Positions 11,784-21,623 of a stretch of DNA of 34,974 nucleotides are shown in pieces (within the stretch, counting starts at the first letter, position 1; each line of letters starts with the position of its first letter). The stretch covers positions 1 to 34,974 of the forward strand of contig DRJK01000139.1 in NCBI GenBank assembly GCA_011052215.1, read 5' to 3'. The translations under genes and the position numbers were made by a program. Origin of the DNA: Gammaproteobacteria bacterium (GTDB lineage: Bacteria > Pseudomonadota > Gammaproteobacteria > JAADHQ01). Under the pieces are notes generated by a model. The model saw nothing but the letters and a program-made list of their open reading frames with translations. It did not search any database and had not been told where the DNA came from.

Positions 11784-12345
11784 TTATACTTGCCTCCCTG
11801 TTAACGTCATTTAACGACCTGAAACAGAAAATGTAAATCATTTGAATTATTTAACACAATCTCTGGTGATAATCCATAAACAATCTACTCGAAGGCTATA
11901 AAAATACTTATTTTTTCCACGCTAAACTTTTCAGGCTGATGTCAAGACAAATTCACATAAGTGTCTAATAATATCTTCATCATCATTTGCTAATATATTG
12001 TGCACCCGTATACCCGATTTTATCTTTTACGCCTTTTTATCGGTCCTTTTGCACAGAAACTTTAAGAAATCATCCTATCTTTCCTTGGCTATCACTGAAA
12101 ATGGCGAGATGCCCCCTTCGGAGCCGGGATGAATCCACTACGAAAGGGCTATTTTGGCCAGATTTTCCCGCGCAATGATCACCTGGGCCCGACAGACTCC
12201 TGAGTACACCGGAATTTACACCAAAGGGTCGAATGGTCCAGGTCTGGATCAAGACAAAAGGCTTGCCAAAAAATGCCGGCATTACTCCTGACGATAAAAT
12301 TAGGGTAGGATAACTGGCTCTGAAGGCCGTTTTCCCCGAAAATAA
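11784..12345. other. Divergent intergenic region between pilG and gshB
   Basis: This 562-bp gap must hold the promoters of both the leftward pil-chp operon and the rightward gshB operon. The half next to pilG (11784-12050) is AT-rich. On the minus strand it has a TTGACA hexamer at about 11939-11944, but no convincing -10 box at the right spacing, so no promoter is called. The half next to gshB contains the repeat remnant at about 12126-12201. The piece from 12202 to 12345 shows no gene I recognise; a minus-strand open frame there carries repeat DNA and resembles no known protein. Confidence 0.6.
12126..12201. repeat. Remnant of an intergenic inverted-repeat element
   Basis: From GGGATGAATCCACTACGAAA to CCGACAGACTCCT this segment resembles the right part of the element at 14430-14668 read in the opposite direction. 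It shares GGATGAATC-ACT-CGAAA, TTTTGGCCAG-TTTCCC and GATCA. It ends with GATCACCTGGGCCCGACAG, matching the outer end of the other element's left arm (GATCAGCTGTGCCCGACAG, reverse strand). Only one terminus (CCGACAGACTCCT, 12189-12201) is recognisable, so it is probably a truncated or rearranged copy. Confidence 0.65.
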
Positions 12346-13305: not shown

Positions 13306-14373
13306 ATGCATAAATCAGTCTGTAATCTTTTGCTATGCAGTACATTCCTGTTTGTACTGACAAGCTGCGGCGAACCGTCCGGGTCTCAACCCCGCGACAA
13401 GACATATCACCATAGTATATTCAGTTTTGGCACTATTATTGATATCTCTATTTATGGCACCGATGAGGCGACAGCAGAAATGGCCTTTGACCAGCTTGAG
13501 GCCGACTTTAATTACATGCATGCAACCTACCACCCCATGCTGCGTTCCGCCCTCAAAAGAAACAATGTACTGCTGGCAACGGAAGAATGGTTTACCGATG
13601 CGCCCTCTATCCGGCCATTATTGACGCAGTCTGTCCGGTTGGCAAAGGCCAGCGACAACCTGTTCAATCCTGCCATCGGCAAACTGATCAGATTATGGAA
13701 GATCAACGAAAGTGAAAACAAAACGGGCGTGCCTCCCGATGATGCAGAGATAAAAAAACTGGTGAAAAGCAATCCTGTCATGAGTGATATCGACATTGAT
13801 GGTATCAGAATAAAATCCCGCAATCCTGATGTTGAACTTAATTTCGGCGGCTTTGCCAAAGGCTACGGGATCAAACAGGAAATAGAAATGCTGAAGGAAC
13901 TCGGCATAAAAAATGCCATTATCAATGCCGGCGGTGACCTGCACGCCATCGGCAGCCATGGAAACCGGCCCTGGCGTATTGGTATACGACACCCGCGCAA
14001 AGAGAACGAGGTGCTGGCATATATTGATGCAATGGATGACGAGAGTGTTTTTACTTCAGGCGATTACGAACGTTACTTCATGTATAAGGGAAAACGTTAC
14101 CATCACATTCTTGATCCACGCACGGGTTATCCCGCCAGCGGGGCACAGTCCGTTACTGTAATCCACAGGGATCCTGCGATTGCAGATGCCGCTGCAACCG
14201 CACTGTTTGTTGCAGGCCCCGGGGACTGGCAACGTATTGCAAAATCCATGGGTGTTTCGCATGTCTTGCTGATTGACGGGCACGGTGTCATTCACATGAC
14301 CCCGGACATGAGCAGCAGGGTCCACTTCAAAGACAAACCCGGCAACATTATAATCAGTAAACCGCAACAATAG
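13306..14373 (+). CDS. apbE: ApbE-family FAD:protein FMN transferase, lipoprotein
   Basis: This 355-residue protein has a lipoprotein signal peptide with lipobox LTSC (Cys21), so it should be anchored facing the periplasm. ApbE enzymes use FAD and Mg2+ to attach FMN covalently to a Thr/Ser of targets such as NqrB/NqrC, RnfG/RnfD or other flavoproteins. The motifs NFGGFAKGYG (about 179-188), INAGGD (206-211) and HHILDPRTGYP (266-276) are present, as are the metal-binding Asp and the Ala-rich DAAATAL segment near 294-300. No acceptor protein is encoded nearby. The gene sits between gshB and tonB, which I remember as adjacent in Pseudomonas. The stop codon's last base begins the perfect palindrome at 14373-14427. 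Confidence 0.92.
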   Translation: MHKSVCNLLLCSTFLFVLTSCGEPSGSQPRDKTYHHSIFSFGTIIDISIYGTDEATAEMAFDQLEADFNYMHATYHPMLRSALKRNNVLLATEEWFTDAPSIRPLLTQSVRLAKASDNLFNPAIGKLIRLWKINESENKTGVPPDDAEIKKLVKSNPVMSDIDIDGIRIKSRNPDVELNFGGFAKGYGIKQEIEMLKELGIKNAIINAGGDLHAIGSHGNRPWRIGIRHPRKENEVLAYIDAMDDESVFTSGDYERYFMYKGKRYHHILDPRTGYPASGAQSVTVIHRDPAIADAAATALFVAGPGDWQRIAKSMGVSHVLLIDGHGVIHMTPDMSSRVHFKDKPGNIIISKPQQ

Positions 14374-14427
14374 TGCTTAATCCATGTGATAATTACGGGT
14401 TCAGTAATTATCACATGGATTAAGCAC
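14373..14427. repeat. Perfect palindrome, 24-bp arms, 7-nt loop
   Basis: The arms 14373-14396 and 14404-14427 are exact reverse complements, separated by GGGTTCA. The left arm begins GTGCTTAATCCATGTGATAA. It could fold into a very stable RNA hairpin directly behind apbE, but the following bases (CAAGGGCC) are not a T-run. It may act as an mRNA 3'-end stabiliser or a Rho-linked or bidirectional stop, or be a mobile-element relic. Confidence 0.9.
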
Positions 14428-14429
14428 CA

Positions 14430-14668
14430 AGGGCCTGTCGGGCACAGCTGATCGTAGCGAGAGAAGGCCATTTTGGGCCGGATTTTCCGATCATTTGGGG
14501 CGAATAGTGAACCTGGATTTTAGCGACAAATACGCCAGGAGCGTATCTGGACCGCCAAAAACGACCCGGAAGGGGTGAAATACGGGGATGTATTTCATCA
14601 AAATGATCGGGAAAGCTGGCCAAAACGGCTTTTTCGCAGTAGATTCATCCTAAGTCCGGCAGACTCCA
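14430..14668. mobile_element. MITE-like structured inverted-repeat element
   Basis: The outer arms at about 14431-14496 and 14601-14667 are imperfect inverted repeats of roughly 66 bp, meeting at a perfect inner block CCGATCATTT/AAATGATCGG. The termini are GGGCCTGTCGGGC on the left and, reading the reverse strand, GGAGTCTGCCGG on the right. Two more hairpins lie inside: ATACGC/GCGTAT at 14530-14546 and TGAAATAC/GTATTTCA at 14576-14597. No coding sequence is evident, so it would be a non-autonomous element or a structured RNA. The right end lies 7 nt from the tonB start codon. With the palindrome at 14373-14427 it fills the 301-bp gap between apbE and tonB. Confidence 0.7.
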
Positions 14669-14674
14669 GAAAAC

Positions 14675-15556
14675 ATGACCCATACATATCAAAAGCCCAC
14701 CATTTCACACAATGACCGTATCGGTCTGACGTTGTTTCTGGCTATTACATTGCATGCACTTGTCATTCTGGGAATCAGTTTCAACTCCGATGATATCGGC
14801 AAACAGGATCTACTGGCCACGATGGATATTACCCTTGTCCAGCACAAGACAGACCAGGCGCCGGACAAGGCCGATTACCTGGCACAGGCAAACCTGAAAG
14901 GCTCCGGCAACACCCGTGAAAAAGTAAGACATCATGCGCTGCAAAGCAAGCCCAGCCCTGAACAGACCAAGGGACACGCAGACCAGAGTATCGCGCCCTC
15001 CATGACCAGCCCGAACCCGAAAGGCCATGTACAGTTATTAACACGGGAACAGGCAGATAGCCGGGTTCACTCGAGTAAAAAAGAACTGGATGTCAAACGA
15101 ACCAGAAAAATCTCGACCCGGGAACTCATCAGGCGCAGTAAGGAAATAGCAAGACTCAGTGCGCAGAATGATGCATACTGGCAAGCGTATTCAAAACGTC
15201 CTGACTCCAAGTATATTTATGCCAATACCAAAAAACACGCCGATGCAGCCTACCTGACTTCGTGGAGTCGAAAAGTCGAACGTATCGGTAATATGAACTA
15301 CCCGTCTGAAGCTCAACGAAAGAACATGAATGGCAACCTGATTATGGAAGTGACCCTGAAACCGGATGGAAACCTCATCAGTGTCAGAATACTGAAATCA
15401 TCCACTCACAAGATCCTTGACCGGGCCGCCATCAATATTGTAAAACTGGCCGCACCCTTTTCCCATGTGCCGGAAAGTGTACTGGAAAACCGCAAGGTCC
15501 TGAGAATCGTCAGGACCTGGTCATTCACAGACTCAAACAGATTGTACAGCAGGTGA
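14675..15556 (+). CDS. tonB: TonB-family energy transducer (TonB3-like)
   Basis: The 293-residue product has a short cytoplasmic N-terminus, one TM helix at about 18-36 (LTLFLAITLHALVILGISF), a long charged periplasmic spacer and a TonB C-terminal domain (NYPSEAQRKNMNGNLIMEVT followed by LKPDGNLISVRILKSS, about 207-245). TonB couples the proton-motive force of ExbB/ExbD to outer-membrane receptors. The spacer is Lys/Ser/Gln-rich rather than the Pro-Glu/Pro-Lys rod of classical TonB. The position next to gshB and algH matches Pseudomonas tonB3, a gene reported to be needed for twitching motility. No exbB/exbD are nearby. The ATG has no good ribosome binding site, because a repeat element ends just upstream; a later start is unlikely because the TM helix begins at residue 18. 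Confidence 0.88.
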   Translation: MTHTYQKPTISHNDRIGLTLFLAITLHALVILGISFNSDDIGKQDLLATMDITLVQHKTDQAPDKADYLAQANLKGSGNTREKVRHHALQSKPSPEQTKGHADQSIAPSMTSPNPKGHVQLLTREQADSRVHSSKKELDVKRTRKISTRELIRRSKEIARLSAQNDAYWQAYSKRPDSKYIYANTKKHADAAYLTSWSRKVERIGNMNYPSEAQRKNMNGNLIMEVTLKPDGNLISVRILKSSTHKILDRAAINIVKLAAPFSHVPESVLENRKVLRIVRTWSFTDSNRLYSR

Positions 15557-20597: not shown

Positions 20598-21047
20598 ATG
20601 AGTCAGGAAAATACTTGCATTATCGCCGCACTGGATCTGTCTGATGACCTTGAAGCCGTTGCCTCCAAGGCACGTTATCTGGCCGATTGCATGCAGCTCC
20701 CGGTCAGACTGTTACACATCATAGACGATCAGGCGCTCATCGAATTATCCAATGAATTCGGCCCGGGCAATACGCCTGGAAGCGGGTACATACAGCAGGA
20801 ACTCAGGGATGAATACATTGCACGACACAAGATTGGTGCACGACTCAATCTGTCCGACAACCAGCTGGGTGAGCTGGAAATACGGGCCGGACAACACTGC
20901 GCCAAAACACTGGAACAGCGGGCCCGTGACCTGAACGCCTCGGTGATTGTGACCGGCCAGCCTGAAACTCACTTTGGCTCGGTTGTTTCCCACCTTGCCC
21001 GGCACGCACACTGTGACGTCTATATCGTTCGGACCAGGCCCAAGTGA
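20598..21047 (+). CDS. Universal stress protein (UspA family)
   Basis: The 149-residue protein has the Usp fold pattern: IIAALDLSDDLEAVASKARYLA at the start (quoted in part), LPVRLLHIIDD in the second strand, ARDLNASVIVTG near 110-121, and SHLARHAHCDVYIVRTRPK at the end. The ATP-binding G-2x-G-9x-G-(S/T) signature is not intact (GQPETHFGSVV), so it is more like the non-ATP-binding UspA branch than the nucleotide-binding one; that is inference. The function is unknown beyond a link of the family to stress and growth arrest. It overlaps the DUF202 gene by 3 bases, an unusual pairing that suggests co-regulation. Confidence 0.88.
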   Translation: MSQENTCIIAALDLSDDLEAVASKARYLADCMQLPVRLLHIIDDQALIELSNEFGPGNTPGSGYIQQELRDEYIARHKIGARLNLSDNQLGELEIRAGQHCAKTLEQRARDLNASVIVTGQPETHFGSVVSHLARHAHCDVYIVRTRPK

Positions 21048-21400
21048 GCTCGCTGCCTGATACGAACAGGCTTGCGCTGGACCGCACGGTACTGGCCAAT
21101 GAAAGAACATATGCAGCATGGATCCGCACCGGTCTCACGTCACTTGTGGCAGGTCTTGGTATCGCCAGGTTCCTGTCAAACAGCATGCCACTGTGGAGTA
21201 CCCACATCATTGCGGCAATACTGATACTTTTCAGTGCGGTCTCATTCATTCTGGCAGCATGGCGCTACGAGCATTTACACGTGGGAATGGCGCATCTTGA
21301 TGTCAGAATGATCCCTGTTTACACGGTCAAGATATCAAGCATCGTGCTGGTGAGTTGCTCTTTGATTGCACTGGCCAGCTTATGGTACATAACACCCTAG
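21044..21400 (+). CDS. DUF202 (YidH-like) small membrane protein
   Basis: The 118-residue protein carries the family motif LANERTYAAWIRTGLTSLVAG (about 18-38, quoted over its core) followed by three predicted TM segments: near 28-45, 51-70 and 95-115. E. coli YidH is a distant relative of similar length; the function is unknown. It starts with GTG overlapping the usp stop (GTGA). The TAG stop at 21398-21400 lies at the left end of the inverted-repeat element, so the final residues and the stop may have been set by its insertion. The length is still normal for the family. Confidence 0.88.
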   Translation: MSSLPDTNRLALDRTVLANERTYAAWIRTGLTSLVAGLGIARFLSNSMPLWSTHIIAAILILFSAVSFILAAWRYEHLHVGMAHLDVRMIPVYTVKISSIVLVSCSLIALASLWYITP

Positions 21401-21543
21401 GAATCTGTCGGATTCAGGATGATTCTCGGCAACTGCTCCATGCGTTGCCCTGCCTCCTGCGTCCATGCAGTCGTACTGCGGCGGCAGGAAATCGACCCGT
21501 TTTCCCACTCGCCGCTACAAATACCTGAATCAGACAGACTCCT
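21399..21543. mobile_element. MITE-like element with 20-bp terminal inverted repeats
   Basis: The left end AGGAATCTGTCGGATTCAGG (21399-21418) and the right end CCTGAATCAGACAGACTCCT (21524-21543) are inverted repeats matching at 18 of 20 positions. The 105-bp interior has no credible gene. The terminal AGGA(G/A)TCTGTC core is shared with the ends of the elements near 12201 and 14668. An obvious target-site duplication was not seen, and the left end coincides with the DUF202 stop codon. Confidence 0.75.
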
Positions 21544-21623
21544 GGCTGACAAGTTACCAACCATGGCCAGCTTATTATGTACAAACAGCACAAGTCGCAA
21601 GCTCTTCCCGGAAGGACAGAAAA

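Follow-up and report, generated by a model that had tools for sequence, protein, structure and literature searches.

Two stacked MITE-type repeats in the apbE-tonB junction of a gammaproteobacterial genome are probably tolerated insertions

The tonB gene of this gammaproteobacterium is preceded by a long, highly self-complementary stretch of DNA, which raises the question of whether this stretch is a regulatory RNA leader or an inserted repeat. In the window, by which the whole 34,974-nt stretch of analysed DNA is meant, the architecture described by an earlier, sequence-only reading was found again. The two imperfect 66-nt arms form 54 pairs (47 Watson-Crick and 7 G-U), a perfect 10-bp inner block (CCGATCATTT/AAATGATCGG) lies within the arm pair 14472-14496/14601-14625 (84% complementary), and two inner hairpins are present, namely ATACGC/GCGTAT and GTGAAATACG/TGTATTTCAT. 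The element ends about 7 nt 5' of the tonB ATG, and the base of its stem about 9 nt 5' of it. The former agrees with the distance of ~7 nt given in that reading, and the start codon was confirmed by the alignment with congeners (Table 1). The predicted RNA fold of positions 14420-14690 had an energy of -94.6 kcal/mol (z = -4.06), and none of 200 dinucleotide shuffles folded equally well. Among 245-nt stretches of the window the folding energy was unremarkable (z of -1.55). Because the energy alone was not extreme, the case beyond chance is made by the inverted-repeat architecture together with membership of a repeat family. No plausible gene was found within the element. A glyQ-like peptide, YGDVFHQN, in its core was rejected as a candidate, since the core matched a non-coding repeat module of other genomes over a longer stretch.

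Table 1. Positions of the genes, repeats and flank remnants discussed in the text (coordinates of the window)
Feature	Position	Strand	Remarks
Family-A copy with internal deletion, upstream of gshB	about 12110..12206 (left limit approximate)	-	
apbE	13306..14373	+	Pfam ApbE, 6.7e-71; same gene order in three congeners (G001-G003)
apbE stop codon TAG	14371..14373	+	target TA (14371-14372) followed by the initial G of family B
Family-B MITE, 24-bp perfect inverted repeat with 7-nt loop	14373..14427	.	arms 14373-14396 and 14404-14427; no T-run after it
Decayed CTAG flank, now CCAA	14427..14430	.	shared border of B (right end) and A (left end); B terminates in the C at 14427
Family-A MITE (element under study)	14430..14667	+	+ denotes the orientation in which the left arm contains GTAGCGAG
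Left 66-nt arm, family A	14431..14496	+	
Third repeat module inside A, bearing two extra hairpins	about 14512..14602	+	replaces ~8 bp of the canonical centre
Right 66-nt arm, family A	14601..14666	+	
Remnant AG of right CTAG flank, T missing	14668..14669	.	CTAG consensus compared with window sequence
tonB, 293 aa, intact	14675..15556	+	Pfam TonB_C, 3.8e-15; N-terminus and start align with congeners
Family-A copy	21397..21545	.	stop codon of a DUF202 gene (21044-21400) provided by the left CTAG

The element was found to belong to a repeat family, here termed family A, which gave 19 matches, corresponding to about a dozen copies, in its own genome (a 2.6-Mb draft). When GTDB genomes were searched with a right-arm pattern, family A was found on at least 107 contigs of other genomes, mostly Gammaproteobacteria MAGs and mostly marine, with hosts including Thiodiazotropha, Sedimenticola, Chromatiales, Thiomicrorhabdus and Halioglobus. 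A few contigs (among L101-L180) were labelled Bacteroidetes or Armatimonadetes, which points either to mislabelled or contaminated bins or to a wider spread. The canonical form is ~160 bp long, mostly 157-163 bp between GRGYCTGTCGG ends, and 30 of about 68 pairs, among those listed, had CTAG flanks on both sides. These palindromic flanks are compatible with duplication of either 4 bp (CTAG) or 2 bp (TA), and no pre-insertion site of family A was seen base for base. At 10 of 57 family-A loci, by simple ORF calling, the flank TAG was exactly the stop codon of the neighbouring gene. In the family alignment, the arm sequences differed between lineages with pairing kept, around constant asymmetric motifs. 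Family A is short, has terminal inverted repeats and occurs in many dispersed copies, features expected of a MITE. Judged by sequence comparison, family A is a MITE-type repeat and its copy at tonB is old. It appears to be nameless, as far as a short search of the open-licence literature covered it.

Two further family-A copies in the window (Table 1) had been omitted by the sequence-only reading. The one at 21397-21545 carries a different inner module, CGGCAACTGCTCCATGCGTTGCC...CATGCAGTCGTACTGCGG, which also occurs in family-A elements of two other genomes (G054 and G181). In G054, a bacterium of another family, an independent copy sits in the same operon type, between ruvX and pyrR. Elsewhere in the own genome (C148:7960-8393, L012/L013), a family-A end pair was observed inside a longer inverted repeat that extends as far as the end of the contig and may be a fold-back of the assembly. 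The copy at tonB is longer than the usual form because its centre holds a third repeat module, which is not present in canonical copies and is single-copy in the own genome. Relatives of this module were found in G181, within another family-A element, and in G138 and G087 as separate copies. The tonB copy of family A is thus read as a composite.

A second inserted repeat, likewise passed over before, lies at 14373-14427, directly behind apbE, and is here assigned to family B. Further copies of this family, of 55-160 bp (some about 155-160 bp) and with CTAG-type flanks, were found on contigs C109, C55, C59, C146 and C111 of the own genome. The copy on C109 (L022, G000:C109:5217-5274) is located between iscS and iscU. 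There, iscS ends with CACACTAG, and its stop codon TAG is formed by TA together with the G that opens the element; apbE ends in the same way, with CAA CAA TA followed by the G of the element. The iscS-iscU junction of three congeners reads CACACTAA... without an element, compared with CACACTA followed by the family-B element here. As these congener sites contain the TA without the element, it follows that TA is the insertion target of family B and that a stop codon can be restored by the insertion. At tonB itself, the left flank of B (today ATAG) has decayed, as have the two flanks of A; the target duplications given for this site are accordingly reconstructions, none being intact. The CCAA at the border of A and B is most readily explained as a CTAG that has decayed. 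In the 24-bp stem of B, both arms share two changes (TTAATCC/GGATTAA versus TCTATCC/GGATAGA), which could reflect maintained pairing or simply templated correction of one arm by the other. Taken together, A and B are regarded as unrelated MITE families that are stacked at the apbE-tonB seam.

The gene order of the operon is gshB-apbE-tonB-yqgE-ruvX-pyrR. In the three congeners the distance from the apbE stop to the tonB ATG is 20, 2 and -4 nt, and neither element is present, which bears out the view of the element as an insertion. When both elements were removed in silico, the junction became CAACAATAG-AAAAC-ATG with a 5-nt gap, the same spacing class as in the congeners. Because apbE of the congeners runs straight into tonB, tonB is an inner gene of the operon and the element displaced no tonB promoter; gaps of this size are too short for tonB to have had its own promoter there. 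The Shine-Dalgarno sequence of tonB was indeed poor, as had been pointed out, with a duplex energy of -2.8 kcal/mol. The corresponding values of the congeners were -5.0 kcal/mol (moderate), -1.7 and -1.9 kcal/mol (the last two amounting to none), and gshB, apbE and ruvX in the window are likewise without a Shine-Dalgarno sequence. Since tonB of the congeners also lacks a strong Shine-Dalgarno sequence, the missing ribosome binding site is ancestral. The earlier statement that the element sits where the tonB ribosome binding site and promoter should be was therefore mostly wrong.

Several explanations in which the element has a function were weighed. Outward sigma-70 promoters are known in several bacterial MITEs (PMC10969869), and the element might supply a new promoter for tonB; we regard this as highly improbable, because a consensus scan, which is blind to other promoter types, gave nothing promoter-like on the + strand of 14373-14674. 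A promoter-like match, TTCAAA-17-TATAAT (14326-14354), was found where apbE ends; separate transcription of tonB could start from it, though matches of this kind turn up about as often as expected by chance. Terminator-like sites, or stems followed by a T-run, were not found in 14373-14674. Co-option of the insertion was considered as well, in which case the two hairpins would now serve as a leader that sets the TonB level, e.g. through RNase III-controlled decay or through blocking of the 30S site until cleavage. Any read-through transcript would contain both stems, the base of the A stem lies close to the ATG, the B stem has perfect pairing, the changes in one arm being matched in the other, and Correia elements act in this way at Neisseria mtrCDE (PMC10969869). 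The changes in the stem of A at tonB speak against such a role. Compared with the 61 Watson-Crick pairs of copy C27, 46 pairs were unchanged, 2 were compensated, 4 had become G-T, 4 A-C and 5 other mismatches. Thus 9 changed pairs were broken versus 6 retained, with G-T equal to A-C, changes which look like those of drifting, neutral inverted-repeat DNA. The predicted openness of positions -8 to +15 was nearly the same with and without the stem cut (0.43 and 0.43). The orientation of the family relative to genes was random. The survey behind this used one pattern and simple ORF calling in draft genomes; of 39 loci at which genes were called to the left and right of the element and no ORF overlapped it, 27 had co-directional flanking genes, with 13 versus 14 elements in the two orientations. 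Co-option as a leader is accordingly considered unlikely.

A function of the folded strand itself, with family A acting as a non-coding structured RNA or as a single-stranded DNA substrate that folds, would account for the fixed length of ~160 bp, the constant asymmetric motifs and the lower folding energy of one strand. The + strand was the better folder in 50 of 52 copies and in all 11 divergent ones, at least two Watson-Crick types were found at 34 of 50 consensus pairs, and arm sequences co-change across genera. Templated correction, however, can make inverted-repeat DNA covary as well. A strand-specific RNA signal was at first apparent (G-T 242 versus A-C 33), but it fell to 37 versus 27, and to 22 versus 18 in divergent copies, when only stem columns predicted on both strands were counted. 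Because most of the G-T excess was gone in these columns, leaving no clear strand-specific retention, the signal was no longer counted in favour of an RNA function; the strand bias came from columns fixed as G-T across family A. Rfam searches at gathering and relaxed thresholds returned nothing credible, only sub-threshold noise of microRNA-type hairpins and a weak sRNA match. We give a functional folded strand little chance. The proposal that the structured RNA acts as a leader hence found no support, there being no Rfam family, no orientation bias, no clear strand-specific G-U retention and little compensation. Another reading, to which we attach a similarly low probability, sees in family A a mobile element, so far undescribed and found across genera, that conserves its folded form while its stem sequence is free to vary (e.g. 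as a single-strand or RNA-mediated hairpin), or that spreads via stop-codon rebuilding at operon seams, which would make its insertion nearly harmless.

The random orientation, the lack of clear strand-specific retention and the drift-like tonB copy favour tolerated insertions. It is likely that the two stacked MITEs in the apbE-tonB seam are tolerated passengers and do not form a host-selected regulatory leader. The insertion of family B would have been into the TA of the stop codon of apbE; with G as its first base, B would have restored this codon to TAG. Family A would occupy a CTAG on the right-hand border of B, the order in which A and B inserted being uncertain. As the elements contain neither a T-tract terminator nor a good promoter, tonB would be transcribed by read-through from upstream, and the inserts would uncouple its translation from that of apbE. 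By analogy with Correia elements (PMC10969869), the stems are probably substrates of RNase III, a gene for which is present in the genome; cutting of the long duplexes would leave tonB on a processed, weakly initiated message.

Some described repeats resemble the elements at tonB. Correia elements (NEMIS) of Neisseria are non-autonomous inverted repeats of ~105-155 bp near genes, which are co-transcribed and whose stems are RNase III substrates (PMC10969869, PMC2229807). Family A is alike in being a short, non-autonomous inverted-repeat element near genes, but differs in its ends, its target (CTAG) and its hosts. The Correia end motif, TATAGYGGATTAA, could not be found in the window when up to two mismatches were allowed. 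QMITE2 of Coxiella burnetii is 150-190 bp long, is intergenic or in 3' untranslated regions, forms a long hairpin and has variable direct repeats of 7-11 nt (PMC5896051). By description, not by sequence, it is similar to family A in size, hairpin and gammaproteobacterial host, whereas its direct repeats differ from CTAG. The Chunjie MITE of Geobacter uraniireducens (178-235 bp; Chen et al., known by the title of the reference), from an unrelated host, was likened in the same way, by description and not by sequence.

According to the title of Tenzen and Ohtsubo (1991), as cited in PMC2170065, IS630 prefers the TA within CTAG and duplicates TA. The CTAG flanks of A and B resemble this IS630/Tc1-mariner target. 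Of 39 products of ISY100, 3 had a full TA at one end and a single A at the opposite one, a loss also seen at the right end of family A here. The elements differ from this group in that no transposase with A or B ends was found among the IS630-type genes checked. Among PF01609 and PF13358 genes of this and the other searched genomes, no parent autonomous element with these ends was found, and unpaired element ends at 80 loci had no adjoining parent transposon. No match to the element was found in viral contigs, and only one weak partial match in plasmids. The parent transposon may be lost or unsampled; an insertion sequence with the ends GGAGYCTGTCGGACTTAGG, if found, would name the parent transposase family.

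The explanation of this strange-looking tonB leader as two stacked mobile elements guards against its annotation as a riboswitch. It also shows a simple route by which a mobile hairpin can enter an operon without breaking a gene, i.e. by insertion at the TA of a stop codon with rebuilding of TAG. Family A is common in uncultured sulfur-cycling Gammaproteobacteria. In another part of the window, positions 49-175 of the - strand, beside a chemotaxis gene cluster, matched the Rfam TwoAYGGAY RNA (RF01731) with a score of 43.2, compared with a gathering threshold of 43.
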